The notes beneath the pieces are model-generated. The model worked only from the letters and a program-made list of their open reading frames with translations, was not told the origin of the DNA and did no database searches. From contig OX579640.1 in assembly GCA_951230915.1 (NCBI GenBank), forward strand, positions 19,860,981 to 19,924,980: a stretch of DNA of 64,000 nt, written 5' to 3'. Source of the DNA: Antitrichia curtipendula (lineage: Eukaryota; Streptophyta; Bryopsida; Hypnales; Leucodontaceae). The position numbers and the translations under genes were made by a program. Below, in pieces: positions 1,675 through 62,660 of the stretch (position 1 is the first letter of the stretch; each line of letters starts with the position of its first letter).

Positions 1675-1793
1675 AGGGGTACTTTCCCGATGTACTGTAC
1701 AAGTACTCGGATGTAGAATGTACTGGATGATTTTCATCCTCTCTAACAAAACACCAAGTCTATCCCACAAGTCTCTCAGAGTATCAGACATTG

Positions 1794-3425: not shown

Positions 3426-3550
3426 TGATCAACTCGGGGGTGGAAAGGAAACCCATGCATTACATGCATCTGAAATATCAGATCTGCACTCTGCAGTATG
3501 CCTATCCTAGAAATTTTTTAGCCTCAGAGTACCAGTTACAGGACGTACTT

Positions 3551-3692
3551 CACAAGGGGCTCATACTGAGTTCCCGGTGTCGAAATTCCCTGTGAGTTTC
3601 ACTTTCCCCGATGTCCCAAGTGTACGACACACTGGAGAAAGTGGAACTCACTTGGAATTTTGACACCGGGATCGCATTGTGAGACTCCTCTG
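3551..3692. mobile_element. Fold-back MITE, CACAGGGGTCTCA family, copy 1
   Basis: Nearly the whole 140 bp folds on itself. Outer arms read CACAAGGGGCTCATA...and TGTGAGACTCCTCTG, and inner arms carry the TCCCGGTGTCGAAATTCC / GGAATTTTGACACCGGGA pair. Copies are at 53435-53587 and 55611-55750. This copy sits at the same place in the duplicated segment as 53435-53587, so it was there before the duplication. Confidence 0.75.
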
Positions 3693-7152: not shown

Positions 7153-7469
7153 GGCAATTTCGTTAAAATGGCGGTATTCCATATGCCATTTTCAGAGCGG
7201 CCACTTTGAACTGCGAAAGTGACATCTAAGAGGGGTGTAGATTACATAAATCTTTGTCTTATATAGATTTCAAAAATCTAGCACTAATGGACATTTCAAA
7301 TCGCGCGGTCTGAACTTTGAAAGCAACATCTATGCCTATTGTAGATTTCAGAAATCTATAAATGGCTTAGATTTCAGTAATCTAGGACAGTTGAACATTT
7401 CAGAGCGGCCGCTCTGAACTGTGAAAACTGCCAAAGTTACGGAATTTCGCCATTTTAACGAAATTGCCC
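7153..7469. mobile_element. MITE with GGCAATTTCGTTAAAATGG ends, copy 2
   Basis: Same family as 6662-6935. The ends are GGCAATTTCGTTAAAATGGC at 7153 and CGCCATTTTAACGAAATTGCC ending at 7469. The inverted ends are nearly perfect and extend about 45 bp inward through TTCAGAGCGGCC. The inside holds four or five diverged units centred on AGATTTCAGAAATCTA. It lies 218 bp from copy 1 in the same orientation. Confidence 0.82.
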
Positions 7470-7957: not shown

Positions 7958-10356
7958 GTGAATATCATGTCTGATGACAGTGCTTCGAGTGAAGGCAGCC
8001 ATGGAGATGAAGAGAACTATAAGAGACCAAGAAGTTGGGGAAGTAGTCTTTCAGACTATGTTGAAGACAGTGATGACTCTGGAGATGTGCAGAACGCTGA
8101 ATTTTTTCAATGGGCCAACCATGAAGCTGACAGAGAAGCCATGCTGGAGATGGAAGAAATGGGCATCTTCAACGAAGAAAATGTTTTATCAACAAATAGA
8201 GCGGACAAACGATCGCAACGAAGAAGGATCCAACGCGTGGATAAGCAAGAGCGTGGAAGTGATGGTGCAAGGAGTGTCCCAGACACATCTCTACTTAAAG
8301 GCAACAACATCGATGGTCTGAAATGGAGTAGCCCAAATCGACAGACTCAGCAGCCACTACATAGCTCAGACTGCAACAAAATCGGAGTGGAGTAGTAGTC
8401 CAACAAAATTGCATGGCACGGGCAACAAATAGCTCAATAGGGCCAAATCTGCAACACCACCGCAGCACATGGAGTGCCGTCCTCCCCAACTGCTGTAGAT
8501 ACATCTTCTCGAAGGAGCCCAGACCTGCACCTCCCCAAATATGGTGGACCACATCAATCAAAAGGCAAGATGAAAATGAACGGTAATTGGACCTCCAGCC
8601 AACTTTGTTGTACTATTGCAGATGTAGACAATGGTCAAAACATTACAACAGTTGCTAGAGACAATGGAATTCCATCTTCTAGCTTAAGGGGTCATGTTTA
8701 TGGTACTACAACTCAAAGAAAGAGGGGTAGGAAAAGAGTCCTAACTGATGAAGAGGATAATGAATTGGTGGATTATCTCTTGCAGATGCAGAACCTTGGA
8801 TTTCCTTTAAATATAGGTCAGTTGAGAGAGAAAGTGGAGATACTCACTCAAACTAGAATCACATCCTTCATAGATGGAGTTCCAGGAGCAGGTTGGGTTA
8901 AATGCTTTAGAAGACGACATCCTGAATTGACTTTGAGAAAGCCACAAGCACTAGACTAGAAAAGAGTTAAAAATCTGTGTCCACAGACTGTAGTCTGTTT
9001 CTATGAAAATTTACAAAAGCTTTACAGTACTCACAAGTATGAAGCACATAAAATCTGGAACTGCAACGAATCTGGCGCCCAAGCTGGAAAAGATGGAGGT
9101 GGATATGTCATTGCAAAACGCGGTTGCATAAGCGTACATATGGTAACTCCTGACCAAAGGGAATGGCTCTCAGTGCTGTCCTGCATCAACGCCAAAGGTG
9201 AGACCCTGCCAAATTTCTACATTTTCAAGGGCAAGAAAAGGAGCAGAAACTTTTAAAAAACAACAGGGGAGGAGAGTGCTGTAATGGCGATGCAGCCAAA
9301 GGCATGGATGACACATTACTTATTTCGAGCATGGATGATACATTTCTTCAATAAGGTGACAGATTTATATGGGATATCTCCATCTAACAGGCATCTGCTT
9401 ATACTAGATGGGCATGGTTCTCATGTGACATTGGATGTCATCAAACTTGCCAGGTCAAAGGGTTTAGACATGCTATCCTTTCCTTCTCACACATCACATG
9501 CCCTTCAACCACTCAACGTCACATGCTTCAAACCATTCAAGCTCTTTTTTGGGGCATACAGAGACAATTGGAGCTTACGAAATTTGGGAAAATTACCGAT
9601 CAAGGAGGACCTTGCCCAATGGGTATCTATGGCATTGAGAAGAGCTTTGAGCATTCGGAGCATTACTAAGGGATTTAAGACAATTGGTATCTTCCCAATG
9701 AACGCAATAGCTATAGACAAGAAAATGGGACCCAGTTCAGCTTATAACACTCTCATGATGGACTACAGACATAGAGCAGCATACAAAATCAACAAGAAGG
9801 ACGACTTACAGTGGAATTGGACCACTAGGAGATGCAAAAAATTTCCGTTGAAGTTTCTATCCATCTGCCAAACTGTTAGCAGTATTATGTCGAAATCGAT
9901 GGTGACAATGTACAAGCCAATTCTGAAGAGTACAATGGTTAGTCTTCAAGTGCAAATGAAGAAGATACAACAAATACAACAGACCAAGCTTTTCGAGATT
10001 TGCTACTCCTTCTGGCTATCCAGTTACCACAAATTTCGAAGACAAGAATGGAACCCCGAGTTGATTACCACAAGTCAATTCTCCTAACTGAAGCAAAACA
10101 TGTGCAAGAGTTGGAAGATGTGGCAACCAGAAAAGAAGCAGCTGCAAAGACAAACAACGGAAGCAATTAGAAAGGACAGCTCTAAAGGAAGCCAAAGCCC
10201 AAGAGAAGATAATCAAGTTGAAAGCTAAGCAAGCCAAGGCTGATCTCACACTATCAAGAAGAAATCACAAAAAACTATGGAGCCTTCAGAGCGTGCAGGA
10301 CTTAGGTGATAAATTGTATGCAGCAATCAAAACAAACGCACCAGTGAGGGCAGATG
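7958..10356 (+). pseudogene. Tigger/pogo-type transposase, 5' part, interrupted
   Basis: A CENP-B/Tigger-like transposase gene of the Tc1/mariner-pogo group. One frame runs without an indel from the ATG at 7958 to about 9815. It is broken only by TAG at 8393, 8396, 8438 and 8957 and TAA at 9254. Order: acidic Ser-rich leader, HTH region (NITTVARDNGIPSSSLR...), CENP-B-type second HTH (GRKRVLTDEEDNELVDYL... to LRKPQALD), then the DDE domain with MAMQPKAWM, LLILDGHGSH and SHALQPLN. The first catalytic Asp is replaced (NCNESG where DE is expected) and so is the third (LQPLN for LQPLD). Both are AAC where GAC is expected. After 9815 small indels move the frame two or three times. The C-terminal coiled part (ELERTALKEAKAQ-like, QLERTALKEAKAQEKII) is open again to 10356. 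The rest of the gene is at 29972-30216. It is dead as a transposase. Confidence 0.88.
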
Positions 10357-10469: not shown

Positions 10470-10960
10470 AAAAACTACGGAAATGGATGGATGTTCTTCA
10501 CCGACGGGCGGCGAGCTTCCGTCGACGGGCACGGAACGGGCGTGATGGACGGGTATCTGGACGGGCGGGATGGACGGGTATCTGGACGGAAAACTGGACG
10601 ACCATGTGGACGGGCGGGTGGACGGGAGGGTGGACGGGCATCTAAACAGGCATGTGGACGGGAGGGGGGGCGGTTGTGTGGACGGGTATCTGGACGGGCG
10701 GGATAGACAGGTATGTGGATGGAAAACTGGACAGGCATATGGACGGGTAATTGGACGGGCATGTGGACGGGCGGGTGGACGGGTAACTGGACGGGTAATT
10801 GGACGGGCGGGTGGACGGGCATCTGGACGGGTAAGTGGACGGGTAATTGGACGGGCGGGTGGACGGGCATTTGGACGGGTAAGTGGACAGGTAATTGGAC
10901 GGGCGGGTGGACGGAAAAATAGACTGGACGGGTGGGATTGGATTTTTGGCTTAAATGCCC
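10470..10960 (+). repeat. GACGG array 1 (left subterminal)
   Basis: Dozens of GGACGG units occur with short spacers, for example GGACGGGCGGGTGGACGGGC and GGACGGGTAATTGGACGGGT. Spacing is commonly 8, 12 or 16 bases. The array starts about 110 bp from the CAGGG end. Repeated short motifs just inside the ends are typical of hAT elements, where transposase binds subterminal sites (AAACGG in maize Ac is known). Long open frames across the array (Trp-Thr-Gly, Gly-Arg, Pro-Val-His runs) are by-products of the repeat. Confidence 0.9.
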
Positions 10961-19239: not shown

Positions 19240-19655
19240 GCCCGAGACTTGGACGGATGGATTTTCCGTCTTCTCGACGGTCTGCCCGTCCCCTCGACGG
19301 ATTGCCCGTCCCCTCGACGGAATACCTGTCTCCTAGACAGCATACCCGTCTCCTGGACGGCATATCCGTCTCCTGAACGGCATACCCGTCTCCTGAACGG
19401 TATACCCGTCTCGTGGACGGCATACTCGTCTCCTCGACGGAATACCCGTCTCGTGGACGGCAAACCCGTCTCTTGGATGGAAAGGCCGTCCAAAAGGACG
19501 AGGTGCCCGTCTCTTCGACGGCCTGTCGCTGGTCGGGAACGGCCCGCCCATCCTCTCGACGGCCTATTTGTGGTCTGGGACGGCCTGTCCCTGGTCGGGA
19601 ACGGCCCGCCCATCCTCTCGACGGCCTGCCAAACGTCCTGGACGGCCCTTTAAAA
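19240..19655. repeat. GACGG array 2
   Basis: About 20 GACGG/CCGTC units alternate at roughly 20-base intervals, for example CCCGTCTCCTGGACGGCATA and CCCGTCTCGTGGACGGCATA. Unlike array 1 each unit pairs a CCGTC with a GACGG, so it is made of small palindromes. Just to the left, 19127-19156 has a CAGGGCGTGGGACAGTCC segment with a C10+ run that could be another hAT-type end, but I found no partner. Confidence 0.8.
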
Positions 19656-22139: not shown

Positions 22140-22742
22140 CACTCGGCCAGCACTGTTTTGAATGGCCCGCTTGACGACCTTCCCGCCCTCTCGACGGCCT
22201 TCCCGTCCTCTTGACGGCCTTCCCGTCTCTCGAAAGTCTTCCCGTCTTCTTGACGGCCAATTCGCGGGCTGGACGGCTTGGCCCCTTGGACGGCTTGGCC
22301 CCCTGGACGGCCAGTCTGCGGGTTGGACGGCCTTCCCGTCCTCTCGACGGCCAGTCCGCGAGCTGGATGGCCTTCCCGTCCTCAGGCCTAAAACCGCAGG
22401 CTGGACGGTCTCCCCCCGTGGACGGCCTTCCCGTCCTCTCGACGGCCAGTCCGCGGGCTGGACGGTCTCCACCCCTGGACGGCCTTTTCGTCCTCTCAAC
22501 GGCCAGTCCGCGGGCTGGACGGCTTGGCCCCTAGACGGTCTCCCCCCCTGGACGCCCTTCCCGTCCTCTCGACGGCCAGTCCGCGGGCTGGACGCTCCCC
22601 CCCTGGACGGCCTTCCCGTCCTCTCAACGGCCAGTCCGCGGGGTGGACGGCTTGGCCCTCTGGACGGCCTTCCCGTCCTCTGGACGCCTTGGACGGCCCT
22701 GGACGCTCTGTCCGTCCTCTCGACAGCCTGTCCGTCGACGTG
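22140..22742. repeat. GACGG array 3
   Basis: A dense array of GACGGCC/GGACGG units in the pattern CCCGTCCTCTCGACGGCC and CAGTCCGCGGGCTGGACGG. The longer unit (about 63-75 bp, containing CCGCGGGCTGGACGG) recurs at least six times. The core is the same as in arrays 1, 2 and 4 with a different higher-order unit. Open frames across it are artefacts. Confidence 0.85.
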
Positions 22743-26053: not shown

Positions 26054-29000
26054 TCAACGTCTTCCATGCCTAAGAATGCGCATAGAAGTATTTGCATTTG
26101 CTTCTTGTACTATTGGTTCACTACCACCCATTTCTTCCAGTGGACCTTGTCGAGGCACCGGCCCCTTGTAATCACTATCTCCTGGAACCTCACCATCTTC
26201 ACCTATAGTACCACCGATGGATTCACCATCATCATTGGATGTTGCACTACTACTTTCGCTGGAGGCCTCGGAATTGCGGTTTCGTTGTGGTCGAGCTATA
26301 GAAGACAACGTCCGAAGAGGTCGTTGGCCCATTGCGTCCATAATGCCATCTGTATTGGGTCCTCCTGTTTGAACTTCTCTTGAAAATGGTTGGGAAGTCG
26401 CTTCTTCCCTCCTCAGCCTTCTACGCGTTCTACTACTTACACGTTCACTAGTAGTACCTTGTGGTCGTGGACGCTTCCCTCGATTATTGGCATGTACAGG
26501 TGGCCGCAATGAAGTCGTATTTCTAGTCACACGCTGTGACACCATACCAGCCAATCATGTACCTATCGACGAAGTTGGTTCGTGTGGACGGCCGTCGGAA
26601 TTAGACGGCCTTGATGAACTTTGGATTTGTAGATTTTCCAATATTGGCATTTGCCTTTGTGCAATCAAGACTCGATTTGGAGGGGCCATATGTGCTTCTC
26701 CAGCTTGAGGGGGCCCTTCACTGCGGGTGGTCCTCATGGGCAATGACGGTGGTACTACTACGTCTTCTTCACGTCCTCTTTGAACGTCAACACCATCTCT
26801 TTCTATTGTGGCATCAACTTGTACATCCATAGGGTCTGGACTTAATGGTCTCGGTGCCACAACGTCCTCATTTGTATTGCCCCCACTTGGCCCAGCATTC
26901 CACGTTTGTGGCATTCGTGGTGGACTTCCTTGATGTCCTTCGTAGTCATTGTCGTTGTTATCCCCCTCTTCAAAGTCAAATACGGATGCATCAATTAGAG
27001 GACGCACTCCTCCCGCCCCACGAAATCTATCAAACGGTGGCTTATCGTCGTCATTGGAACTATCATCTGAATCGTCATCATTGGGATCAGAGAGAACCGA
27101 ACCACGGTCTAGACCATCAGATTCATCTGTCATGGAATCCTCTGACATCATGTTTTCAGTATACCACCTTGTCGGATTTGCTGCAGCCCTTTCTCTAAGA
27201 GTCTTGGAATTGGTATAAATGTAAACCAATTCCTCAGCACGCTCTGATGTCAATCTATTGCGTGATTTGTTGTGGACAAACGAATACATGCTCCAATTGC
27301 GTTCACAGGATGATGCAGAACACACTTGCGCGAGGATCTTTCTGGCAATCGGTGCAAGTGTACGAGCACCGGCTCCGAGAAGGTCCCACCATTCGTGAGG
27401 TTGCAAGTTCAAGGCGTTTACATCAGGAAGTCCACCGAAAATGCCTCGCCGATCTCTAAATGCTTGGTACTCAAACAAAGCTGAAGCAAATGCTTGATCT
27501 CCAACAGCCAATTTGCACAAAACTCTCAGTATGGCTTCTCTTGCCTCATTATCATCCATTAGCATGACTTCGTCTAGTAAAAAGGGATTCAATAGAGCCC
27601 CAGCATAATGCAAATCTGTCCTGAGCATGTCCCAGCGCTTGTAGAAATCATCGGTGGCGGAAATTGCATATCTCCGCTCTAATGAAAATGGTGGATCCTC
27701 CAAAGATAAAACATGCTTTTCCACCTTTTTCATTACAAGCCATGTCTTGTCTAAGCACGGGTGCTTGCCATCAAACTCTCGAAGAGCAATCAATACGGGC
27801 TCCACTATGTGCACAAAGTTCAAACATTTCCTCCAAAATTCATCCGTTCGCACATATCGTCGCACATCGTTAGCTTTTCTTTTCTTTTGATTGGATGCCA
27901 ATCTCCGCGTATACTCATTCCACTGCGGATCGTGGACTGTCGATTCTATCGCTTCCCTCACCTCCACCAAACGTTCGATCATGAGGAACATGGTAGCAAA
28001 GCGTGTTTGAACGGGCTTTTTCAAAACGTAATTAGGAGAATGTCGTCGAAAGATTGCAAGTGGCATGTGATGCGATCGAATGTATTTCACAATTGACTTG
28101 GCTTTCTTGACCATACTTGTAATCCAATCTTGTTTTCCCCAATCTTCAAGTAGAAGGTCAAGTGCATGTGCTGAACACCCTTGAAAATATATGTGTGGAA
28201 ATCTACAAAGTAACAGAGCGCCAGCGGCCAACATGTTTGCTGCATTGTCTGTACAAACTTGTACCACGTTTTGTGCCCCTACCTCGTCAATGTAATCACC
28301 CATGCAATTAGCCACGTAAGTAGCATCTTTGCATTCGCCTGTTGTGTCTATCGATCCAAGAAAAACCTCTCCACTTGTACATGCCAACATGACATTCATC
28401 AATGGTCGATGTGTAACGTTGTCCCATCCATCAGAGCATATTGTAACGCCATATTTGTGGATTGGTGCCCTCGTCTTCTCTGCTACAATTGCTGCCACTT
28501 TGTCTTTTGTAGATTTTATGAGCTTTGTACGAAGTGCATGGTACGCTGGAGGTTTGTAGCCAACTCTTGATTCCGATGTTGATTTCACTGCATCCAGAAA
28601 AGCAAGATGCCTCACTACATTGAATGGTATATTGGCTTCGTAGAAAAACTTAGCCCACTTCTTGTCAAGTACTTGCTTGTTTGATGCGTTCAGTCCTTCT
28701 TGTAGAGACAGTTGCCTCATCGATCGACTGTGGGTCAAACTAGGGTTGGGCGCCTCCGATGATCGTACTTGAGAGCTTTGCCCCCCAGTGTTTTCTCCTC
28801 CATCGTTTGCCAAGATTGAAGCATCATGTTGTTGCTCACCACGTACTACACTTGGTAGTATCGTTGATGGTGATGTCACTTCCACGTCGCGTCCAGTTCC
28901 ATGCGAAGTGTCCGTAGGTATATGTCCTCCACAATTAAAAAACATTACCTTCACGGCTGCATTGACTTTAGTGCACGCTCTCACTCCAAGGAGGGTGTCA

Positions 29001-29245
29001 TTTCGTCTATATCCCAAATGGAAAAGCAACCGATCCTTTCGATAGCTTAGCAAAGCTTCGCAAAACTTGCAAACAACTTTTCCATCTGGCCGTAGTATGT
29101 ACCAAGGTTCCCACTGTGATCTTGCTCCACCCATTGCTCTTATCTGTCCTCCTTTACCTGCCCCTGTACCAAAAAAAAGATTAGTATTCTGTTTGAAATG
29201 TGATGTGGAAACAATACTTGTTGCTCTCACAACAAGTGCCACCAC
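26054..29245 (-). CDS. hAT transposase (BED finger, DUF659, hAT dimer domain)
   Basis: A transposase of the plant DUF659 hAT class, which cuts and moves hAT elements by binding short sites near their ends. The main frame is 29245-26555 (896 codons). The likely start is the internal ATG of MGGARSQWEPW (about codon 38), since TTTTTTTTGGTACAG just before it looks like a splice acceptor. Order: BED-type finger (CKFC...H...C), linker, DUF659 region with the first Asp in ICSDGW and the second in VCTDNAANM, then hAT C-terminal region with SSCERNWSMY (Glu) and NRLTSERAEELVYIY. All three acidic catalytic positions are present. After the TGA at 26555 the same frame stays open for 166 more codons (to 26054), Ser/Arg/Asp-rich. 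The protein may once have been longer, with CGA changed to TGA. It lies 0.7 kb from the right end of the 19.6-kb element and is the obvious source of its mobility. Confidence 0.88.
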
Positions 29246-29371
29246 AATACACTCTTCTTGGACTTCGCTCTACCGCAATGGTTGTACTCCAACCAAGTCA
29301 TGAAAGGCAAAATAAGCAAGGGAAAGTAATCTTGAATAGGCAGAAGTCCTTAATATACACCTTGAAGCCCT

Positions 29372-29429: not shown

Positions 29430-29860
29430 CTAAACCCGCAGCCTTGCCAACGAAACCGTCCAAGGGGCGACTGTCCCGTCCTGTGATATTTCGGTCCAGG
29501 GGACGGGACGGTTTCCCGTCCAAAGGACGGAGAGGCCGTCCAAGGGACGGATTACCGTCCTGGAGACGAGAATTCCGTCCAGAGACGGGCTCTCCGTCTA
29601 GGGGACGGCTTACCGTTCAGCGACGGACTCTCCGTCCAGCGGACGGCTTATCGTCCACCGACGAACTCTCCGTCCAGAGGACAGCTTACCGTCCAGCGAC
29701 CCACTCTCCGTCCAGCGGACGGGTTACCGTCTAGGGGACGGCCTCTTCGTCCACAGATGGGCTCTCCGTCCAAGAGACGGATGTCCATTTGGCGACGGAG
29801 TCACCGTCCAGGAGACGGCCCGACGCCGTCGCAGAATGGACAGACTTCATCCGCGCTCCG
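29430..29860. repeat. GACGG array 4 (right subterminal)
   Basis: CCGTCCA/GGACGG units repeat at about 20-base intervals, such as CTCCGTCCAGCGGACGGCTT and CCGTCCAGCGACGGACTC. The array ends about 100 bp before the GACAACCCTG terminus. Together with array 1 it gives the large element matching subterminal arrays. Confidence 0.88.
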
Positions 29861-39318: not shown

Positions 39319-40254
39319 CCCCTAAAGGACCAAACACCGTTTTTTGACAACATAGCGATTTTGGGCAACTCACTATGACCGGAATTTTTCTTTTTTTTCT
39401 TTGAAATTTTCACATAAGATGTGCCCAAGGAGTAGCTTTAAGGTCCAACAATTTTCGTAACTTTTGACTACATGGTTAAAAAGTTATTGCATGATATGTC
39501 ATTTTCATTGTTCGGCGGGCAGCCGAGGCAGCAAAAAAAACTTCTTTAAAAATCACTTTTAAAAAAAACTAAAATTTGAAATTGGTTCTCTAGATTTATA
39601 TGTACGTGGGAGGCTTTGAATCATTCCATTCCGATCAATGAGTCAAAAGTTATGAGGATTCTTAGTTTGAGGGTAGTTATGGAATCTCTACTCTAAAATA
39701 AACTTTGAAGTCCTTTATTTAACTCGATTTTCAATATTTTTGAAAAAAAATAAAAACACTGGGTGTAGATTGTTTATTACAACATTACAATCGTTGGGAT
39801 TGGCATTTTTCAATTTCATAAATAAATTCTTGACAATTTAGTGCTTTGAATCATTCTCTACCTCTTCCTACTTACTATTTTTTTCCTATATGTTGTACAA
39901 TTCCAAATGATCTGAAATTTTTCAAGCATGTAGCCAACTTGCCTTGAAGAATAAATCCAAAGAGTAACCATCATTTTGGACATTTTTTCATACAAATGTG
40001 ACCTTGTGAAGGGCAGCTGCCCGTTTTTTCGCAGGGACAAAAAAAGGATTTTTGTCAATTCAAACGCTATTATCTTGCAATCCACAAGGTGGAAAATTCT
40101 GAAATTTTTTCCACATCTTCTTAAACAAGTTTACTACAAGATCCTACGGCTACAAGTGTCCAAAAATGTTTTTTTTCTAAAATTTGGCACTAGTATTAGA
40201 AATGGCAGTTCTGGAGCGTTTTTGGTGAAAACATAGTCAAAAAACTTTAGGGGT
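39319..40254. mobile_element. TTAA-target element, family 2, copy a
   Basis: TTAA (39315-39318) is followed by CCCCTAAAGGACCAAACACC. The other end is AAACTTTAGGGG followed by TTAA (40255-40258). Length 936 bp, no coding capacity. The right part holds the blocks CTTGCAATCCACAAGGT, ACAAGATCCTACGGCTA and GAAATGGCAGTTCTGGAGCG, shared with families 1 and 3. A second copy in the opposite orientation is 56046-57003. Confidence 0.88.
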
Positions 40255-40529: not shown

Positions 40530-41467
40530 CCCCTAAAGGACCGAGGGGGGTATTCACGGAGACATTGTCAAAAACTGCAATTTTTTGGTATGCTATTAAA
40601 AAATGAAATTGATTTTATTTTTTTAAACTTCAACCATAAAAAACTGAAGTAGAGTGTTTGAAAAAAGTGGGGGGAAATTTTTAACCCATTTGACCACGCG
40701 GATTGAAAGATTGTAACATTTGAAATGAGAAAAAAAAAAAAATTCATTTCTGTGAAACAAGGTCAACAAACTCTTGGAGTACAATTTTTGCTCTACAAAG
40801 AAATGAGGATTTTGACCATTCATGAATAATTATATGATGTTAGGTTTACTTGTGAAAAAATTTAGGAGCAATTGAGATGTTTAGTTTATACTAAATCACC
40901 CTACAGTGCGAGGAGGTTAAGTGAATTGGCAATATACGAGTCATTTTTTTATGATTTTTCTTGTGCAATGAGGAAATTATTAATTTGAAATCCAAATGGT
41001 GAAAACTTAGAGACAAACATTTGGAATATGTGAAAAAAAATTCAAGAACTTTGACTTCATAGATTATAAGATAGTAGGACTTGAAGTTAAAATAAATTGT
41101 TTTTATTTGAAACCGCCCCAACACAGCTAAGAAAGTTTGACCCCTCTTAGAATGAGATTTGAGGACTAAAATTTGTTTTCTTTTGAACAAGTGTATGCCA
41201 TATTCTATTAGTTATATATATTCCAAATATCAAATGTTGATGAGTTTTTTTGCAAAAGATTTTCAAATTGCCTGAGCTGCCCCAAAAGTTCAGGGCAGCA
41301 TAACTTTTGATCTGGGCACCCAATTGAAAAAAAAACTAGTTTTTTACCAAAGAGGAACATGTTTACACATTGTGGCCAAATTTTATGAACATTCAACCAA
41401 AATGACTTTATAGGAAGCTACCCAAGATTTCTTGCATATGTTGAATGGACACTTGGTCCTTTAGGGG
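40530..41467. mobile_element. TTAA-target element, family 1, copy a
   Basis: TTAA (40526-40529), then CCCCTAAAGGACCGAGGGGG; the right end is ACTTGGTCCTTTAGGGG, then TTAA (41468-41471). The terminal inverted repeat CCCCTAAAGGACC is 13 bp and perfect. Length 938 bp, no coding capacity. The copy 54166-55119 is its reverse complement. Only 271 bp separate it from the family-2 copy at its left. Confidence 0.92.
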
Positions 41468-46590: not shown

Positions 46591-48660
46591 AGTATGATGT
46601 TTCAATGTCATGATGTCCGTCAAAACGTTAAGATTCAACCCCCAAAAAAATTAGGAAACAATTATCATCATTTTATAGTTGTAGTTGATTCCTAGTCATT
46701 TCCTAGTCATTCTTTGCAACAATAGATAGACAAGGTGGATTCCGTAGAGTGTAGACTTGTCCACATTGACAACTACAATGAATATTGGATGGAGAATTTC
46801 ATTCTAGATTTGAACTCCGTTATGCCTCTTGTGATCCTACACTTCATTCTATAACAACTTTGTAACTAAAACAATGTATTAATGATGTAAAACAATGATG
46901 TAAGAATTTGGTGCAAACAAAGAAGGCTAGTGCACTAGTGCAGTCAAAGAACAATTGCATAGAATATTTAGTCGCTTGTTAGACAGTTTTTGCAAACACA
47001 TTTTTCTTCTAGTATTGGGGCAATCCAAGCATCTCCTGGAAAAAATAACTTACATGATTCATTTTTTAATGCAATTTCTACAATTTTTCAAAAATAAATT
47101 GTAACATAGGGTTCAATGTGCTTGCTAGAAAAATCTAACCGTTGAAATTATTATGTTTCAATTCCATCTTAGAGCTATAAACAATTTATTCTTTTGTTCA
47201 ATCTTGAACCTACTTCTATTTAACAATTTTTTAAAGAATGAACTCAAGCATGTGTTTTTTTGAATTTATTTTTCTAGACTCTCAACTCAATTCTTCACTA
47301 CAAATTTTCTTTAATTCAACATTAGTAGTGCAAAATTTGTAAGTTAAGAAGATTCAATCTAAGAAACTAGGTGCAAAAAAGTTGGTTCTCTTCACTTTAA
47401 ATGCAAAATATTTTGCAATCCATCTAGTCAAAGTTTCTAAAATTTCTTCCAACATTTTTAGAAGAATTTAGCATAAGATCTTATAGTTAGATATGCAAAA
47501 AAATACTTTTTTAAGTTGTTTTTTCACTTTGCAATAGAAATGATAGTTTTAAGTAGAATTTGATGAAAAAGGCCCTAGAAATTTAGAGGTGGGTTCTTTA
47601 AAGGTTTCTTTAAGGGTCTATTTATTTCCTAGTGTATTTCAATTATGTCTTGCATTTTTACTTGAATTACGGTTTGTTTTTGAACTATAGATCCATAGTT
47701 TGTTGAATTTGCTCTAAAGCTTTTAGGCAATTTGGAACAACAATAAATTGTCTGATTTGTCTCATCTCTGAGATTCTAACTAGATTCTTCATTCTATTTA
47801 GTGTTGCTTTTCAAATAGAGTTACTCCTGCAAATATAAGACTACACTAACTAGAGCTTTTGTCATCAACTATTGTAGATTGTACTTAAATTCACCTTAGG
47901 ATTGCAAAACCATACATTCCAAACATCAATTATTATAAAGACCACATGATTCATTTGTATACACATAATTGTAACACTATTTTAGAATATAAAAGAAAAA
48001 CTCAATCACTTAATAGTGTAGATTCTTTAAATCATAGGAGCAATACTAAATCAAATTATCTCATGTAGTATAATGATATGTATTTAGTGTGAACCACACT
48101 AAATATAATGAAGAGTGTAGCTGCCCATTTTTCCCATCCCTTGTTGAAAACACAAACCTACTTAATCCCTCACTACCCAAGGGGACCAAGAATGTCCTCA
48201 CATAGTTTCAAGCCCAATTCAAAGTATTGTAACTTTTGCATTCAATGTATAAAATTCAAAATAACTTTTTGGAAAATTTGCGTTCTCTCTTCTAATTTGT
48301 TTGATAAAATTTTCAAATCAATCCAAGATCATGTACAAATATTTTGTAAGCCAATTATCCAGCCAATTAAAGTTTAGAGTTTCAATTTGAATTCACCAAA
48401 CTGCATTTGATGGTTGCAACTTAAGGAGGATATATCTGCTTCATCCAATGTTTATTTTCAATGAAATTTGATGGTTTGTATTGCCCTTTAAGTCTACTTA
48501 TTTTGTCAAAAAATATATGTCAATCCAAATTATTTTGAATGTTTAGTCCAAACAATTCAAAGTTCAAAATCCCAACATTTTTGGATTACAATGAACTCAA
48601 GCAGCTTGTTTCTTCTTCACAAAGTATTTGTCTCTAATAAATGTTCTTAGGAAAGTTGCA
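46591..48660. other. AT-rich non-coding interval with a TTAA-family relic
   Basis: From about 46990 to 47620 the blocks GGGGCAATCCAAGCATCTCC, CTCTCAACTCAATTCTTCA, TTGCAATCCATCTAGTCAAA and GAAATGATAGTTTTAAG follow family-3 order. The ends are lost. Nothing else is recognised. Confidence 0.55.
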
Positions 48661-50524: not shown

Positions 50525-53032
50525 TTAATGGAGCTTAACTGAATGTACAGGTATTTGGATGTAGAATGTACAGTACTGGATGATTTTCATCCTCTCTAAC
50601 AAAACACCAGGCAAGTCTATCCGAGCAGTCTCCTGTTCTCTTGCATCTTCATGGCCCCTTCCGTTCTCGTCCGTTCTATGCGTCCAGTAATGCACGAAGT
50701 TGTAGCCCAAGAACAGCGTGGCACAAAGCAAGAACACGCCCATAGCCACTTCACACGCATGGGTGCACTTGTAGTTGATGTGCGGGGCGATGAACTGCGA
50801 GCACACGAAGCTGAAGAACAGCGCCTTGAGGGACAACATCAGAAAGTACGAAGCTGACACGATCAGCACCCGGGTCCTATACAGCAACTCCTTCACCTGC
50901 AGACAGCCAGGCGAAAGACGATTAGATATTTTAATATATATACATCAAGTTTGTCAGCCACACATGTAAGAAATCGAAAAACCGCAGTGCAAATTAAATT
51001 GATGAAGTTAGTTACGCAAAGGTAAATGCATGTTTGGGTATATCAAGAAAACCAAAACTGTAGTTTTGAAAACTAAACGATCGTCATGTATTCGTTGAAT
51101 TATGCAAATGGGAAGGCCTCATCAAATTCATTTGGGTATTCGTGTTATCTATCAGGAAACCTCAAGCAGTCAAACCTAGCTACAACGGCCTTATATTAGT
51201 TTTTTGAAGACTCCGGCATGGAAGTTTTGTTACATCGGTGGCAATGCTTTGACACCTTTCAGAGTTTCAGAACGTGCGTTCTTATACATAAATGGACCTA
51301 ACTTTGAGACCTTTCTGTACAGTACATATAAATCACAAGTACTAGAGCCCGAATCGTGCCAAAAATTGTGACGTTCATCTCCAGCAAGCTCTAATAAACT
51401 ATAACTAAGACACTGAGGTATAGATCTCTGTTTCAGGCAGCTAGCGCGGCCTGAAACGGACCAATTCAAGTCATGTAGAACAAAGAAATATGAGCGTCGT
51501 AATCATGTACCTGCGTGTCATCTACGGCCTCATGGAAGAAGAAGGCGAACGAGAACGGCAGTGCGGCGAACGCAGCTAGAATGGTGGCCACCATGGCCTG
51601 GAAGAACGCCCACCTCGGCAAGAGAAAAAAATCGATCCACTTTCTTGATCCCAGGCGGCCCTCCGAACCCCTTCAGTTCACTGATGTCCTTCCGATGTTG
51701 CGCTGCTTCGACCGACGTCAAACAATGGTCAAAGGTCAACGTTATTATCAAAACCGACACCACCAGAATCGCATTCGCCGCCGTCACGTAGTAAGTGTAC
51801 TTCTTGTGCATTTTCTCGAAGTCCCGCTGCACGCCAGGGTGGTCCCTCACCACTGCCTGAATGGTTTCGTTTCGCGTCTCCAGGGCTTCGTGCATGGCGA
51901 CCACGGCTTGCTCGGGATGCCACTTCACAATAAGCTCGACTAGAGTTTCACGCTTTTTTAATACTGCAAAATGCAAGAGATACGCAAGATAGTCGTCCTC
52001 CTTGCCCTCCGAATTCTTCACGGTTTCGTAAAAACTTTGGAGTAAGAAGTCGGCTATTTCCTTATTAGGGGCCTTAGATAGAAGCTCCATGTAGAGGTCG
52101 AAAGTTGAGGTAGATCTGGTCGGCTTCGGGAGACAATGGATGCAAAGTTGGAGGATTTTCTTGCACCCACTTCGCACTGCGTGATGCAGTAGCCCAAATC
52201 CGTCCTGGTCTTTGATTTTGACGACGACGTCGTCGACATGACTGACGTCAACGAGATCCAGCATACTTTTCAGGACTCCCTGGTGACCGTTTTTCGCTGC
52301 TAAGTGGATTGCGAGGTTGCCGTGGTGGTTTTGCTTCGCAGCAAGTTCATGCTTGTTACCCAGACTCTCGGCCTCCAAAAGAGCATCCACGACGTTCTCC
52401 AGACCCCTTGCTGCTGCGTAATGGAGTCCCGTATTGCCGAACTGGTCTTGCTTTCTGAGAAACTGGGAGAAGCTTCTGACTGTCAATCTCGCCGATTTGA
52501 TGATCATGCGTGCAATTAGATCACTGGTTTTCGTCGAGCTAGCTTCGCATGCCACGTGCAAACAAGTTTGTTTGTTGTTATTCAAGATCGCTACGTAAGA
52601 TCGTGGATCAGAGAGAAGGATGTTAACACACAGTGTCGAGGAAGCTCTCGCTGCGACATGCAGCGGAGTGTCTAGTCTTCGATTCCCCACGTTGGGATCC
52701 ACATCAGCCCGTTCTAGAATCAGTAACACTGAGTCCTTACATTTCTCCTCGTTGTCTTCGTCGTGCATCGATACTGCCAAGTGCAGGAGGGTGTTCCCTT
52801 CTTCACCACCGAATTCAGCCAAGTTCACTTCGATTTCGGGCTGTTTCAGCAGCACGCCCATGACACCGAGAGGGTCCTTGTTGAACTTCATGGCGCGCGC
52901 GACGGAGATGTGTCCATGCGTTCGGCGCCGCTCCCTGGGTGTGCGTGCCAAGTGCTCTTGAACTTGGGACGTCGAGCAACAGTGAGCGTAAGCCTCCAGA
53001 GTTGCATCCGGTGATAGTAGTATTGACGCCAT
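50525..53032 (-). pseudogene. Ankyrin-repeat PGG-type membrane protein, copy B, two exons
   Basis: Exon 1 runs from ATG 53032 to 51511, intron 51510-50897 (GTACATG...CTGCAG), exon 2 50896-50525 (TAA). N-terminus MASILLSPDATLEAYAHCCS, then six to seven ankyrin repeats (NTLLHLAVS, DTPLHVAARA, QTCLHVACEA, GNTGLHYAAA, NLAIHLAAKNGH, GFGLLHHAVRSG), a helical linker, then the membrane part with NAILVVSVLIITLTFDHC and FGGPPG, the PGG-like mark of plant ANK-TM proteins. Exon 2 has two further helices (VLIVSASYFLMLSLKALFFS and VAMGVFLLCATLFLGY). Compared with copy A, five bases are missing after GGCCGCCTGG (about 51648), so the normal frame (LPRWAFFQAMVATILAAFA) is lost and the protein ends in LVRLLLP at 51530. 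The ankyrin half is intact. The gene is probably a young pseudogene, or makes a shortened one-helix protein. Confidence 0.85.
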
Positions 53033-53434
53033 CGATCAACTCGGGGGTGGCAAGGAAACTTCTGCATTACAGGCAGGGGGCATGCAAAGTATATGATGTG
53101 GTTAGTCGCATTTGAGAATCTCATTTCAAATTCTAAACAACTAGACTACTAGAGCTCCAAGACATTGAATTAAAACTGAAACTAATGGGACAATTAAGTT
53201 CTGGTTACGTTCGGTAGATTTACTCAATTTGACATTTGAAAATGAGCTCTCAATCATGATTCTATGAAACTGTGCCATTCGAGTCGCCAGTCGACACTCT
53301 GGTCAGAACAGCATCTGTTTTGGACAAGCATCTGAAATCTTTCAGATCTATACATGTATCCTTGAAATTTTTCAGTTCTGAGGCTGGTATCAGTTAAAGA
53401 AGGTACTAAAATCCACTCGAACTTGCTCTCGGAC

Positions 53435-53587
53435 CACAGGGGTCTCATATTGCGTTCCCGGTGTCAAAATTCCCGGTGAGTCCCACTTTTCTTAGTGTTT
53501 TCTCGGTTTTCCCAGTGTACGACACACCGGGAAAAGTGGGACTCACCTGGAATTTTGACACCGGGAACGCAATACGAGACCCCTGTC
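53435..53587. mobile_element. Fold-back MITE, CACAGGGGTCTCA family, copy 2
   Basis: CACAGGGGTCTCATATTGCG at the left and CGCAATACGAGACCCCTGT at the right are inverted. The inside (GTGAGTCCCACTTTTC / GAAAAGTGGGACTCAC) pairs too. It holds the position equivalent to copy 1 at 3551-3692. Confidence 0.85.
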
Positions 53588-54165
53588 GACCTCGCTGAGA
53601 TTTACCAAATGAATGAATATGAAATTACGTACCTTTCAAAAGTTAAAACTCCACATTTTATTGAAAGTTTGAAACTCCCACTTCTAGAAATCGATCGATC
53701 AGTTGGACTTCGTTTTCTTCTCTTGGTCGATCTTGATTACTTCAGACAAGCATATCGATGGATGGTTGGCACCCGTCTGCGAACATTGGCCGGGCTGCTC
53801 GCCTCAGTCCTAGCAGTGTCGAAATGTACGCGTGTGCGTGCAAAACGATTTGGTGCCATCTGCAACTGTGCAGCGGTGAATATATAATACACCTCAGAAC
53901 TCGTAACCTGAAATCAGAGTCTACTTAAATCAAAGAGCTGCATTGCATGCACTGGCAACCAAATCGTTTCCTCAACCTGACAAAGCTTCAATTCACAATT
54001 GAATGAGAAACTGAGGGGAAGTCATTCAGGTTTTGTAATTAAGAACAAGCGGATGAAAAATAACGCTGATAAATCATGTCACCGACCAGGGATTTTTTTT
54101 TCGGACTAGTGTCCCGTGACGAAATTTCGCCCCCAAAAAAGCCCTATCACCGACTATGCACTTCA

Positions 54166-55119
54166 CCCCTAAAGGATCAAGTGTCCCTTCAACGTACGCA
54201 AGAAATCTCGGGTAGGTTCCTACAAAGTCATTTTCGGTTGGATGTTCATGAAATTTGAACACAATGTGTAAGTATGTACCTCCTTTGTGAAAAATTAACT
54301 TTTTTTCCGATCAGGTGCCCGGATCAAAAGTTATGTTGCCCTAAACTTTTGGGGCAGCTTGGGCAATTTGGAAATCTTTGAAGAATCTTTTGCAAAAAAA
54401 AATCATCAAGTTTTGAAATTTGGTATGTATGTAACTAATAAAATATGGCATACAATTTTCCAAAAAAAATATAAATTTTAATTTTCCAATCACATTCTAC
54501 GAGGAGTCAAACTTTGTTAGCTATATTGGGGTAGTTTCAAGAAAAAACGTTTTCTTCTAACTTCAAACCCTATTATCTTGCAATTAGTGAAGTCAAAAAC
54601 TCAAAATTCTTGAAATTTTTGACAAATATTCCAAATGTTTGTCTCTAATTTTTCACCATTTGGATTTCAAACAAAATACTTCCTCATTGCTCAAAAAAAT
54701 GACTAGTGTATTGACAATTCACTTAACCTCCTTGCATTGCAGGGTGATTTAGAATAAGCTAGACTCTATATTTTCTTCTAAATTTTTTTGCAAGTGAACC
54801 TAATATCATATACTTATGAATGGTAAAAAGTCTCATGTTCGTGTAGAACAAAAAATATTCTCCAAATGAGACCGAAGTCTGCTGACCCTGTTTCGCAGGA
54901 TTCGTAAAAAAGGATTTTTCTCACTTCAAATGCTATAATCTTTCAATCCACGCGGTGAAGAGGGCTGAAATTTTTTCGACACTTTGTTAAAATACTTTGA
55001 TTTAGTTTTGTACGGTTGAAGTTCCAAATAAAAGTTTCGATTTTCTTTTTTGAATAACATACTAAAAAGTCGCAGTTTTGGGAATGTCTCCCTGGAAAAT
55101 CCCCCCGGTCCTTTAGGGG
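54166..55119. mobile_element. TTAA-target element, family 1, copy b
   Basis: The left end is ACTTCA then CCCCTAAAGGATCAAGTGTC form (the A of TTAA site reads TTCA at 54162-54165); the right end is CCCGGTCCTTTAGGGG then TTAA (55120-55123). It is the reverse complement of 40530-41467 over its whole length. The empty site in copy A is GCACTTAATAGAATAG at 4332-4347. Confidence 0.92.
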
Positions 55120-55610
55120 TTAATAAAATAGAACCTGCCTATATCGAGGTTGTCTTATGATTATTCCTGGTTCCAGAAATTTCTCCCCCAAAAAAGCCCT
55201 GTCACCGACTACGCACTGAATAGAATAGAAGTTGCGTACATCGAGGTTGTCTTATAATTATTCCTGGTTCCAGAATCAAAGTCCTCAAGTGTCGACTTAA
55301 AAGTGCACACGTCTGGCGGATCGGATATTCCGCACCTTCACTTCCATGCCTCGACTCCTACAACAATACGTGCTCTCATGTGTACGCAAGACTTTTAAAA
55401 CAGTTTTATTGCCATGATCCACAGTTTTTCGTTGCAGACAATTTCACATCAGATTTTTGGTGAGCCTTGTAGCTAGAAGATTCCCTTCCATCGAAAGCTG
55501 CGGTTCGAAAGCTGCGGTGACAACTGAAAAGATGGCCAAACTTAAGGAAGTTTCAAGCGGTTAGTTTTCAAGGCAATTTTAAAACACGTCATGGAGTTGT
55601 TATTCCTGCT

Positions 55611-55750
55611 CACAGGGGTCTCATGTTAAAATCTCCGACGAGTCCCACTTTTCCCGGTGTGTCGTACACTGGAGACACCGGGAAAACACCGGGAAAAGTG
55701 GGACTCACCGTAAAATTTCAACATCCGGAACTGAATGTGAGACTCCTGTG
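55611..55750. mobile_element. Fold-back MITE, CACAGGGGTCTCA family, copy 3
   Basis: CACAGGGGTCTCATGTTAAA at the left, TGTGAGACTCCTGTG at the right, with a GACTCACC/GAGTCCC inner pair and a GTGTCGTACAC loop as in the other copies. Copy A has no such element between TTGTTGACACTTG and AAGGTCTGTAC (about 4690-4707), so this one moved after the duplication or was lost from A. Confidence 0.85.
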
Positions 55751-56045
55751 CCTTTTGAAGGTCTGTACATAACATTGTTCACCTGACCTGGGATTCCCTT
55801 TTGCTTCCCCTCGAAAAAGGGAGCCCGCAGTGAAAACAGTGCCTCTCGCACCCAATTGTCCATGCATCCGCACAGACTGCGCGCAAACATATAAACAATT
55901 TCATCTTCCCGCCTCCAATGGTACAGTTGGTTGTAGTGTCATGACAACATCATGTAGAATAGAACCTCTCTAAAGCCTCCTTCTATAAACAAATAAACCT
56001 CTACAAGATAATATTGTCAGATGGTCATGGTCTTGTCTTTACTAA

Positions 56046-57003
56046 TTCCTAAATTTTTTTGACTATGTTTTCACCAAAAAATGCTCTAAAATTGTCACTT
56101 CTAATACAAGTACCAAATTTTAGAAAAAAATAATATTTTTAGATAAATGTAACCGTAGGATCTTGTATTACACTGGTTTGAAAAGATGTAGAAAAAAAAT
56201 TCAAAAAATTCCACCTTATAGATTGCTGGATATTAATATTTGAAGTGACAAAAATCATTTTTTTGCCCCTGAAAAAAAACGGGCAGGTGCACTCACAAGG
56301 TCTGATCTTTATAGAAAAAAAATTCTAAAATGGTTGTAACTCTTTGGATTCATTCTTTAAGGCAAGTTGGCTACATGCTTGAAAATTTTCAGATCAATTG
56401 GAATTGTACAACATATAGGAAAAAAATAGTAAGTAGAAAGAGGTAGAGAATGATTCAAAATACTAAATTGTTAACCATTTATTTATGGAATTGGAAAATG
56501 CCAATTCCAACAAATGTAATGTTGTAATAATCAATCAAAACCTTATTTTTTTATTTTTTTTCAAAAATATTTAAAATTGAGTAAAATAAAGGATTTCAAA
56601 GTGTATTTTAAAATAAAGATTTCATAACTACTTGTAAACTACCTACAACTAAAACTTCTTATATTTTCTATCTCATCAATAAAAATGAATTGATTCAAAG
56701 TTTTCCATGTAATTATATAGAAATCCAAAAAAACAATTTCAAATTTTTATTTTTCAAAAAAGTGATTTTTAAAGAAGTTTTTTTTGTTGCTCAGGCTGCC
56801 CACTAAGCAATGAAAACTACATATCACTCAATAACTTTTGACATTGTTGTCAAAAGTTATGAAAATTGTTGGGCCTTAAAGCTACTCCTTGGAAAAATGT
56901 TGTGTTAAAATTTTAAAGAAAAAAAATACAAATTCCATTTGTAGTAAGGTGCCCCAAATTGCTATGTTGCCCAAAAATGCACTTTCAATTGGTTCTTTAG
57001 GAA
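56046..57003. mobile_element. TTAA-target element, family 2, copy b
   Basis: Ends are CTAA then TTCCTAAATTTTTTTGAC (56042) and GGTTCTTTAGGAA then TTAA (57004-57007). It is the reverse complement of 39319-40254 with decayed ends (CCCC changed to TTCC). The empty site in copy A is CCCCATTACAAAGG at 5031-5044. Confidence 0.87.
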
Positions 57004-57298
57004 TTAATAAGGTTGTAATGACTAAAACTGATCCTCTATAAACAAATAAACCTCACTAATGTAATCTTGTCAGATGGTTTTCGATCTATTGATTTAGAGA
57101 GGTTCTTCTATATACGATTAGGAATACAGTGAAGATATTAAACCAACGAATAACAAATTAACATGAGATTGGAAAAGAAAGATTAAACACAAATTTGTGA
57201 ACAACAATATCATTAAGTTTAAAGATCTAGAAGGGTGACTAGTACGTGAGAATTAGAATACCCAAAGCAATGTTCAAAAGTTTAGATAATGCAATTAA

Positions 57299-58225
57299 CT
57301 TCTAAATTCCTATTGTCCCCTCAAAGGACAAAATGGATTTCAGGCAAATTCCTATGGTCTCAATAATTGTCATGATTTCCTGATTTTTTTTTTTATGAAG
57401 ATAGATAAGTACATTAGCTTTCTAAAAATATAATTTGAATTTCAATCGGAGTCCAGGAGCAAAAGTTATGGAACAAAAGCCCTTTTTTGTAGTTTGGTGG
57501 GCAAAGAAAACTTCAAAAAAACTCAAAGTAAAAAAGTTAATTCTTTTTTTGCATAGATTATATTTTTATGTACATGGAAAGCTTTTATATATTTCATTTG
57601 GATTTGTTATATGAAAGTTATGGACAATCTTGTTTCTTGGGCAATCAAAACATCTTCTTGAAAAAATAACTTGTAGGATTCATTTCTAAACTCAATTTCC
57701 AAAAAATTTCAAAAGAAAAAGTTTTACAAGGTTAAGATCTCTTTCTATAACAATCTAACTGTCAAGATTAGTGTATTTCAATTCCATCTTAGTGCTATTA
57801 ACAAGTTAGATTTCCCTTCAATATTGAACCTACTTTTATTTAATAAATTTTTAATGAGTGAAAACAAAGTGTGTATTTTTTTATTTATTTTTCCTAGATT
57901 CTCAGCTTGATTTTTTATCATATAAGATTAAAAATTCAAAACTAGTAGGGCAAAAATTATAAGTTATGAAGTTTCAAAGCCCCAAAATGTAGTTGAACAA
58001 GGTGCAAAAATATTTGTTTCCTTCATTTTAAACACAAATATCTTGCAATCTATATGGTCAAAGTTTGTGAAATTTCTTCTACACATTTTTATACTAGTCT
58101 AGCAGAAAACCGTAGTGCAGTTAGATATGCAAAACAAACATTAAGGCATTTATTTTGGCTCTTTGCTATAGAAATGACAATTTTGAGTAGTTTTTGATGG
58201 AAAAGAGGTCTTGGGACTTTAGGAA
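57299..58225. mobile_element. TTAA-target element, family 3, copy b
   Basis: TTAA (57295-57298), then CTTCTAAATTCCTATTGTCC; right end GGGACTTTAGGAA, then TTAA (58226-58229). It follows 60595-61512 block by block. The empty site in copy A is ATAGAATTAATCTCATTGGC at 5329-5348, and the flanks on both sides of the element match it. Confidence 0.9.
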
Positions 58226-58391
58226 TTAATATCATTGGCAACCAACCCCCAAATTTTTTTTACCAAATTAGATCAACTAATACAAAAGGATCACATATAC
58301 CAACCTAGACCCAAATTTTGAATTTCAATAAGATCATCCTTTAGGTACTCCCATTGGAATAAATCTTGTGGAGATTTTTAGAAAGCTATTA

Positions 58392-58821
58392 AGGTAGTAT
58401 ACTCTAAAATTAATGTGACTATCCTCTTGAAATGAACCCTGTAAAAAGATATCAAATGGATATGAGGTGGTCTTTGAATGGACTACTTTAATCATTAGTG
58501 GAACCAAGAAAAAAAATATTTTCTTATTGCAAGAGCCAATCATTGGCCTTGATTTCCACAAAACACTTTTGAAGTTGCAAATGGACATATTTTGGAAGAT
58601 CTACCTAGGGTCACAAATAGGTACCTACAACAAAAATCTTTGAAAACTCATAACTAATTCAAAAATACTTAAAAAAATATGAAACCACTTGTGTTACGTT
58701 TTTCATTAGATTATTTCTCTTTCCCTTTCTCTGAAAAATGATCTGAAAATATTTTTGTCCATGGAAACCTATGAAATAGGCAGACCAGCCCTTAAATTAT
58801 CGCTTTTAGAGCACACTACCT
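58392..58821. mobile_element. MITE with AGGTAGTRTRCTCTAAAA ends and TA target
   Basis: AGGTAGTATACTCTAAAA at the left and TTTTAGAGCACACTACCT at the right, 18-bp inverted ends with two differences, flanked by TA on both sides (58390-58391, 58822-58823). The empty site in copy A is ACTATTAGGATC at 5490-5501. TA targets and an AGG-type end fit the Tc1/mariner-pogo group. A related element is 59632-63133. Confidence 0.85.
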
Positions 58822-59514
58822 TAGGATGCTAGAGAATATTGGAGGCAATGGTGGAAGAATGAATGAAAGAGTGATTTGGAGGGCAATTTGATTGCTCTGA
58901 CGTACCAACACATTTTGGCCTCTCAGTCTTGGTCACTCTAATGTTTGGGCAGTGCAATGAGGTCAAGACGAGGCTTGGTATTAAAATTTTAAAAATCAAA
59001 AAATCAAAAAATTTAAAAAAATTAAATTAAACTTTAGTTGAAAGAGAATGGAGGACTTACAAGAACCAAAAATGCACATTGCTTACAATAAGAAAAGAGT
59101 CCTAAAGAGGAAGAGGATTGTCTTCCTCAAAATTTTGTAAATTAGAGAATGTTTGAAAATTGTATTTTCCATTACAAAGTAAAATTTGGATTTCTTTTGG
59201 TCCAGGAGCATATAAAAAAAATTCATCAATTCCATCAAAGGCATGGCACTATTCCATGCGCCATATATTGCATATATTGTAATGCTCATCAGAACAAACT
59301 AGGTTTAGTAGTATGTATTTATATTCCATGCCACATGCCTTGAAAAGTGGCAAAGTTGTAGAAATCAGTCAATTTTATGAAATTGACATTGGATTCAAAG
59401 AAACCAATTTAGATTTATTCAAATATTAGATGTACTTAAAACATTCATGTACAAAATTTAGCTTGTTGTAAGGGAATCAAATTGTGTCATTGGCAATATA
59501 TAACCAAATATATA

Positions 59515-60594: not shown

Positions 60595-61512
60595 CCCCTA
60601 AAGGACCATTGTTCCTTTGGAGGACAAATGGGATTTCAAGCAAGTACCTATGGGCTGAAATTTTGTCCTGATTTTTTGAAACTTTTCTTGAAGATAGAAA
60701 AGTTGATTAGCTTTCTAGAAAAATAATGTTTCTCATAATTGGTGCCCACAAACAAAAATTATGACCAAATAAGCTCAAAACAGGGGACGGGGGGCAATAA
60801 AAACAAATTTGCAAAAATTTGAATTTAAAAAAAATAAAAATTCCTCATAGATTATATTTTTGTGTATCTGGAAAGCTTTGATTCATTTCATTTGGATTGT
60901 TGTGAGAAAGTTATGAACATTGTGATTTTTCGAGCAGTTAGAGCATTTTCTTGAAAAAAATAACTTGTAGGATTCATTTTTTAATGCAATTTTTGCAATT
61001 CTTCAAAATAAAAATTTGCATGGTTGAGTATACTTGCAAGAACAATCTCACCATTGGGATTAGTGCATTTTAATTCCATCTAAAATATATTAATATTTTA
61101 GATTTTATTTTTATTTTGTACCTACTTCTACTTAACAATTTTCTTAAGAATGAAAATTCAATTTCTTTTTTTTTTTTTTTTTTCCTAGACTCTCAACTCA
61201 ATTCTCCATTATAAAAATTTAAAGCTCAAAACTCTGTAGTGCAAAATTTTTAAGTTAAAAATGTTCAAAGTAAAAAAATCTAGTTCCGGAATGTGTTGAA
61301 AATTTTGTTTTTTCCACTTTAAATGTAAATATCTTGCAATCTATGCGGTCAAAAATTTTGAAATTTTTTCCACACTTTTTTATACTTGTTGGGTGTAAGA
61401 TCCTATGGTTAGATGTCAAAGAAAAACATTTTAAATTCTTTTTTACTCTTTGCTACAGAAATGGCAGTTTTAGTGTTTCTTTGGTAGAAAAAAGGCCTCG
61501 CTCCTGTAGGGG
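60595..61512. mobile_element. TTAA-target element, family 3, copy c (nested)
   Basis: TTAA (60591-60594), CCCCTAAAGGACCATTGTTC at the left; CTCGCTCCTGTAGGGG, TTAA (61513-61516) at the right. Length 918 bp. It lies inside CACTA element 2 and is the innermost and so youngest layer of the nest. It includes a T20 run near 61168. No coding capacity. Confidence 0.9.
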
Positions 61513-62229: not shown

Positions 62230-62660
62230 CCACTACAATTTCAAATCTTTTAGATTTTAGAAAATAATATTCACATTTCCTAGATTTTAGAATACAATCC
62301 TAGATTTCAGAAAATAATACGCATTTCCTAGATTTCAGAATATAATCCTAGATTTCAGAAAATAATATTCATATTTCCTAGATTTTAGACTACAATCCTA
62401 GATTTCAGAAGAAAAATATTCACATTTCCTAGATTTCATAATATAATCCTAGATTTCAGAAAATAATATTCATATTTCCTAGATTTTAGAATACAATCCT
62501 AGATTTCAGAAGAAAAATATTCACATTTCCTAGATTTCAGAATATAATCCTAGATTTCAAAAAATAACATTCAAATTTCCTAGATTTTAGAATATAATCC
62601 TAGACTTTAGAAAATAATATTCACATTTCCTAGATTTCAAAATATAATCCTAGATTTCAT
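62230..62660. repeat. Tandem array of TCCTAGATTTCAGAAAATAA units
   Basis: About nine 48-50-bp units, each made of two related halves: TCCTAGATTTCAGAAAATAA with TATTCACATT, and TCCTAGATTTTAGAATACAA. They lie just inside the right end of CACTA element 2. Just before, 62090-62190, is a TATGGTGT-rich microsatellite. Confidence 0.85.

Follow-up and report, generated by a model that had tools for sequence, protein, structure and literature searches.

The window analysed here is a stretch of 64,000 nucleotides from the moss Antitrichia curtipendula (assembly GCA_951230915.1, contig OX579640.1, positions 19,860,981 to 19,924,980 of the forward strand). It contains two diverged duplicates, segment A (1696-5965) and segment B (50545-59330), around a PGG-type ankyrin gene whose closest named relative, from Ceratodon purpureus, shows 35% identity. 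Segment A is uninterrupted at all three points where segment B carries short elements, named E1, E2 and E3 (Table 1). These elements have the features of non-autonomous transposons of the piggyBac superfamily, and other copies of the same kind, including W39, W40 and W60, are present elsewhere in the window.

Table 1. Elements, empty counterparts and partial copies in the window (positions are those of the window).
Feature	Position	Strand	Description
E1	54166-55119	.	954-bp non-autonomous piggyBac-type element; flanks TTCA (54162-54165) and TTAA (55120-55123)
E2	56046-57003	.	958-bp element of the W39 subfamily; flanks CTAA/TTAA
E3	57299-58225	.	927-bp element; flanks TTAA/TTAA
Empty E1 site, segment A	4336-4339	.	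TTAA
Empty E2 site, segment A	5036-5039	.	TTAC; within a repeat of about 200 bp, six read paralogues likewise empty
Empty E3 site, segment A	5335-5338	.	TTAA
Second empty E1 counterpart, segment B	55217-55220	.	TGAA; in the empty second unit of a 97-bp tandem
W39	39319-40253	.	935 bp, from the youngest subfamily; flanks TTAA/TTAA
W40	40530-41467	.	938 bp, related to E1; flanks TTAA/TTAA
W60	60595-61512	.	918 bp, related to E3; flanks TTAA/TTAA
Partial E3 relative	710-1297	.	75% identical to 57630-58213; ends not recognised
Partial E3 relative	47018-47571	.	75% identical to 57639-58205; ends not recognised

The collinearity of A and B around the insertion sites was established with blastn and the junctions were read by eye; a global MAFFT alignment of the whole of A with B failed beyond the first insertion and does not form part of the evidence. 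A preliminary description of the window had reported three inserts in B facing a continuous A, with two empty sites reading TTAA and one reading TTAC, and filled sites flanked by TTAA or a one-base variant and bordered by inverted ends. The junctions agree exactly with this report at E1, E2 and E3. The inverted ends, CCCCTAAAGGATC/CCCCTAAAGGACC for E1, TTCCTAAAT/TTCCTAAAGAACC for E2 and CTTCTAAAT/TTCCTAAAGTCCC for E3, all resemble CCCCTAAAGGACC. The inserts are also, as had been proposed, 0.92-0.96 kb long and non-coding, their longest stop-free frames having 63, 64 and 77 codons, respectively. Considering all six complete copies of the window (918-958 bp, longest stop-free frames of 63-106 codons), an exact TTAA is found twice in four of them and one base is changed on one side in the two others. 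E2 is integrated in inverse orientation to W39 and is 82% identical to positions 39340-40251 (blastn).

For E1 and E2, the comparison supports an insertion into B, because an empty tandem unit is available for the former and empty repeat paralogues for the latter. The E1 target was duplicated in B as a 97-bp tandem, the second unit of which is empty and reads GCAC-TGAA-TAGAATAG. The E2 target sits in an older repeat of about 200 bp (46 genome matches listed for a longer query), and all six paralogues that were read are empty, with TTAC in five and TTAT in one. Because of these empty paralogues, five of them with TTAC, the TTAC of segment A is ancestral and not a decayed TTAA. Most likely, B changed from TTAC to TTAA before E2 arrived, or else E2 used an off-target site. 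It could be argued that A formerly held the elements and lost them cleanly, its empty sites being excision scars, since piggyBac excision restores TTAA and an excised site therefore resembles an empty one. This scenario is improbable: at E2 it faces six empty paralogues out of six and their TTAC reading, and at E1 the empty unit lies within B itself. No third copy of the E3 target was found, so that clean loss from A could apply to this element. E3 has A alone as comparison, and the supported polarity therefore covers E1 and E2 only.

The repeat hosting E2 (4950-5150 in segment A) has many copies in the genome and near-palindromic ends (CAGTAGNACCTCTCTAAA ... TTTNGAGAGGTTCTNCTGTA); it is presumably akin to miniature inverted-repeat transposable elements (MITEs) of Tc1/mariner or pogo type, which it resembles. 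Two frames with Tc5-type helix-turn-helix and DDE_1 domains, located at 8441-10087 of the window on the plus strand, encode a pogo/Tc5-like transposase that is possibly related to the mobiliser of this repeat.

The exact 13-base end CCCCTAAAGGACC occurs 7,585 times (3,784 + 3,801) in 400 Mb, compared to four occurrences of the reversed pattern used as control. This abundance is far beyond chance; counted in elements, the exact ends correspond to about 3,800 or more. The preliminary description had suggested a genome-wide search for more copies and took flanks lacking a consistent TTAA as a refutation; the flanks are consistent, as TTAA directly precedes 6,648 of the exact ends (3,318 + 3,330; 88%), compared to a background of 368 TTAA starts among the 64,000 positions of the window. 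In the first eight loci carrying the end motif, which were sampled without regard to TTAA, six have an exact TTAA on both sides and two differ by one base on one side.

A search with W39 returned 6,994 first-look candidates, 40 of which were scored, all spanning positions 1-935 of the query and including the window copy. Among these 40, 39 other full-length copies are 98-99% identical to W39. An exact TTAA borders both sides of 19 of the 20 copies that were fetched, the exception (L064) having ATAA on the left. This copy shows 362 ungapped differences to W39, due to compensating insertions and deletions (98% identity according to the aligner); it was kept in the TTAA count and outside the identity argument. 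Three copies (L065, L067 and L068) show no difference from one another across 935 bp, and their flanks agree at 8 to 17 of 46 positions. Since some copies are identical at unrelated sites, W39 elements have moved recently. The best other genomic copies of E1 and E3 are 88-92% and 79-84% identical to them, respectively. Three waves of differing age are visible from these identities, W39 being the youngest and the E1 and E3 types being older. In one MITE locus (L070), a second end abuts the element and shares its TTAA, and elements thus insert beside each other.

A full-length element of 6,982 bp was found at locus L039 (C1:4386900-4396800), with TTAA at positions 284-287 and 7270-7273. The terminal inverted repeats of the family start with CCC (CCCCTAAAGGACC and CCCCTAAAGG/GTTT ends). 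The L039 element carries CCCCTAAAGG ends and an uninterrupted frame of 967 codons (2883-5786) whose product matches PF13843 (DDE_Tnp_1_7, piggyBac; E 1.6e-77). Among structures of the PDB, this frame matches piggyBat (9c0f, E 1.1e-21) and the piggyBac of Trichoplusia ni (6x67, E 2.9e-20). In the alignment with 6x67, its Asp 619, 708 and 825 correspond to Asp 268, 346 and 447, the catalytic triad of T. ni piggyBac. A Cys/His-rich tail (CRPCVVCGDPSCSFYCRAHNRTFLCLNRGCFEKFH) is visible behind the transposase core and is a candidate for the C-terminal cysteine-rich domain of the superfamily. A second copy of the element, located on C9, was compared over 4.7 kb, i.e. outside its stretch of about 2.2 kb from 291 bp to 2,527 bp. 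Its identity is 99.2% across 4,147 bp and 99.7% across the terminal stretches of 291 and 307 bp; on each side the similarity ends at a TTAA, with 33 and 39 of 100 flanking positions being alike. Another CCCCTAAAG end (L046, C9:16501200-16501800) lies 46 bp beyond the right TTAA of this copy.

The three inserts are almost certainly MITEs of the piggyBac superfamily. They combine a duplicated 4-bp TTAA with CCC/CCY inverted repeats, and the full-length element has a DDE_Tnp_1_7 transposase with an aligned aspartate triad between matching ends. The inserts are moreover short and non-coding, have many copies of uniform length and share their ends with an autonomous element, as expected for MITEs. 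The preliminary description had taken TTAA targeting and the CCC start as the mark of piggyBac and had called for a piggyBac transposase with matching ends; L039, with its PF13843 transposase between CCCCTAAAGG ends, supplies it. TTAA by itself is not specific to piggyBac, as Kolobok and Sola3 are also TTAA-target superfamilies, and the inserts might belong to one of them. Alternatively, they might be Tourist MITEs of PIF/Harbinger, since the 3-bp TAA/TTA duplication given for these in an excerpt of PMC10004981 could be contained in a TTAA flank. Transposases of Kolobok, Sola or Harbinger, for which no search was made, may be present in the genome. However, the transposase found between matching ends is that of L039, with a PF13843 domain and the piggyBac aspartates, which strongly disfavours another superfamily. 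Moreover, 19 of the 20 fetched young copies retain the fourth base of TTAA at either end, which does not fit a 3-bp duplication. Either of these origins is thus very unlikely. It is even harder to believe that L039 consists of two MITEs flanking an unrelated transposase gene by chance. The density of MITEs is admittedly high and some of them adjoin (such as the end located 46 bp from the C9 copy and the abutting end of L070), but the C9 copy has the same two ends, with a similarity stopping at TTAA on both sides, and the similarity of the MITEs to L039 is restricted to the ends of the latter.

The link between L039 and the MITEs of the window comes from these ends: its 5′ 49 bp and its 3′ 205 bp are, respectively, 84% (E 4e-8) and 74% (E 4e-18) identical to W39. 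Three larger transposase loci (L039, L040 and L041) were picked because an exact end is nearby. The 5′ end of L040 is nearer still to W39 (93.6% over 47 bp). The end found near L041 was rejected as an end of the transposase element, as it belongs to a MITE. Several observations weigh against the proposed explanation: (i) both matching ends are found in only one of the three larger loci, L039, and a 3′ end looked for at the L040 locus was not found, leaving its 5′ end only; (ii) the C9 copy has one stop in its transposase domain; (iii) the interiors of the MITEs share little with L039, the similarity being confined to the ends, and what the E1 and E3 types have in common with it is limited to the short motif at the termini plus some tens of bases inside; (iv) among 30 transposase loci examined with 1.5-kb flanks, a TTAACCC end was not seen in 21, and nine (L009, L011, L012, L015, L017, L019, L020, L034 and L038) have a downstream TTAACCC end followed by other letters (for example CCCCTCAACGC, CCCTTAAACGA and CCCCTGAGCGC). 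These last ends hint that several end-specific piggyBac systems may exist side by side in this moss. Because the interiors of the MITEs do not match L039, this element is considered a relative of their source and not a proven parent; that it mobilises the MITEs is nevertheless plausible.

In the mechanism that we propose, the full-length element would encode a DDD transposase recognising the CCCCTAAAGG ends, and this transposase, or that of a close relative, would excise the MITEs in trans. The cut-out MITE would then be joined at a TTAA, with duplication of these four bases. E1 to E3 would have entered segment B after its split from A, and the family has moved again recently within the W39 subfamily. 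The seamless excision mentioned in the preliminary description is carried over from the family name and would apply here by analogy. The system may still be working.

The genome was also searched with PF13843, which gave 906 candidates. The best 116 were scored and all of them pass the curated cut-off, so that the genome encodes at least 116 piggyBac transposase domains; the matched domain is free of stops in 72 of these. A tree was built from 21 stop-free moss domains (20 of the 30 loci and L040) and 22 database proteins, after ten transposase loci had been dropped for stops within the domain. The moss sequences fall into two main groups and several lineages, in a tree with several weakly supported forks and a long-branch warning. 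Outside the locus of L039 itself, the moss domains are 36-74% identical to its domain. Ten database transposases (P0001 to P0010) share 44-70% identity with L039 over the region searched and belong to the same PF13843 clade in the tree, but they differ in origin, coming from metagenome and read-archive sources; the named relatives of the L039 transposase are only a hake (33%) and a snail (30%) protein. A DELLA gene from this assembly shows, over its full length, 76% identity to Physcomitrium patens and 56% to Marchantia, with further database sequences reaching 97%, in agreement with a moss host. Three transposase loci (L016, L028 and L035) are 98-99% alike over about 4.19 kb, and each has near one of its sides an identical W60-type MITE end; the MITE could be nested in, or lie beside, an element that later moved or was duplicated. 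Given the several deep lineages, the full-length copies with more than 99% identity and a MITE wave with identical members, we tentatively consider it possible that a native piggyBac system is still mobile in this moss. If this is true, it would be a seamless cut-and-paste system grown in a plant.

The reference elements piggyBac and piggyBat have a TTAA target and a CCC start. The moss elements share these with them, as well as the PF13843 core and the three aligned aspartates (T. ni 6x67/6x68 and 9c0f). However, L039 is distant from both according to the E values given above and is a longer element with a longer frame, and the moss elements differ by the letters of their terminal inverted repeats after CCC and by their plant host. 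The piggyBac-type MITEs of insects and other animals are likewise short, non-coding and TTAA-flanked, with ends common to a transposase-bearing element; the difference lies in the moss host and in the coexistence of three subfamilies of about 0.93 kb that differ in age. Examples of such animal MITEs are listed for Helicoverpa (PMC9033116).

The preliminary description had also considered piggyBac as foreign to the usual transposon set of land plants. This is roughly right but not absolute, since the superfamily is named among those of plants. PiggyBac is listed among plant superfamilies (PMC10794571) and among the seven MITE superfamilies of angiosperms (PMC10004981); a fern annotation counts 1,230 PiggyBac copies, i.e. 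0.00% (PMC6890710), and feather grass is given a single 75-bp match (PMC8319324). In PMC5505980, piggyBac appears only as a tool still awaiting a trial in P. patens. A match for Niphotrichum japonicum (PMC10619864) was rejected as a piggyBac report, the word in the matching passage being piggybacking. We did not recognise any description of native piggyBac elements of mosses in the literature searched, with subscription journals mostly outside its scope. As far as these searches reach, the superfamily is therefore known, and the novelty lies in its host, copy number, diversity and recency. PiggyBac is widely used as an imported tool, plants included, and the same literature says very little about families native to plants. 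With no fewer than 116 transposase domains, several lineages and identical recent copies, this moss offers a natural setting to study how plants tolerate or control piggyBac, and might be a source of plant-adapted pairs of transposase and ends. Its insertions can also serve to date and mark segmental duplicates, as with A and B.

The window harbours other features besides these elements. An uninterrupted frame of 904 codons (26555-29269, minus strand) with DUF659 and hAT dimerisation domains encodes a hAT transposase. Tandem repeat arrays are located at 10546-10914, 19266-19477, 22165-22690, 29506-29753 and 62251-62659; four of them are rich in G+C, their units measuring 12 to 57 bp, and the remaining one is A+T-rich with a 50-bp unit.

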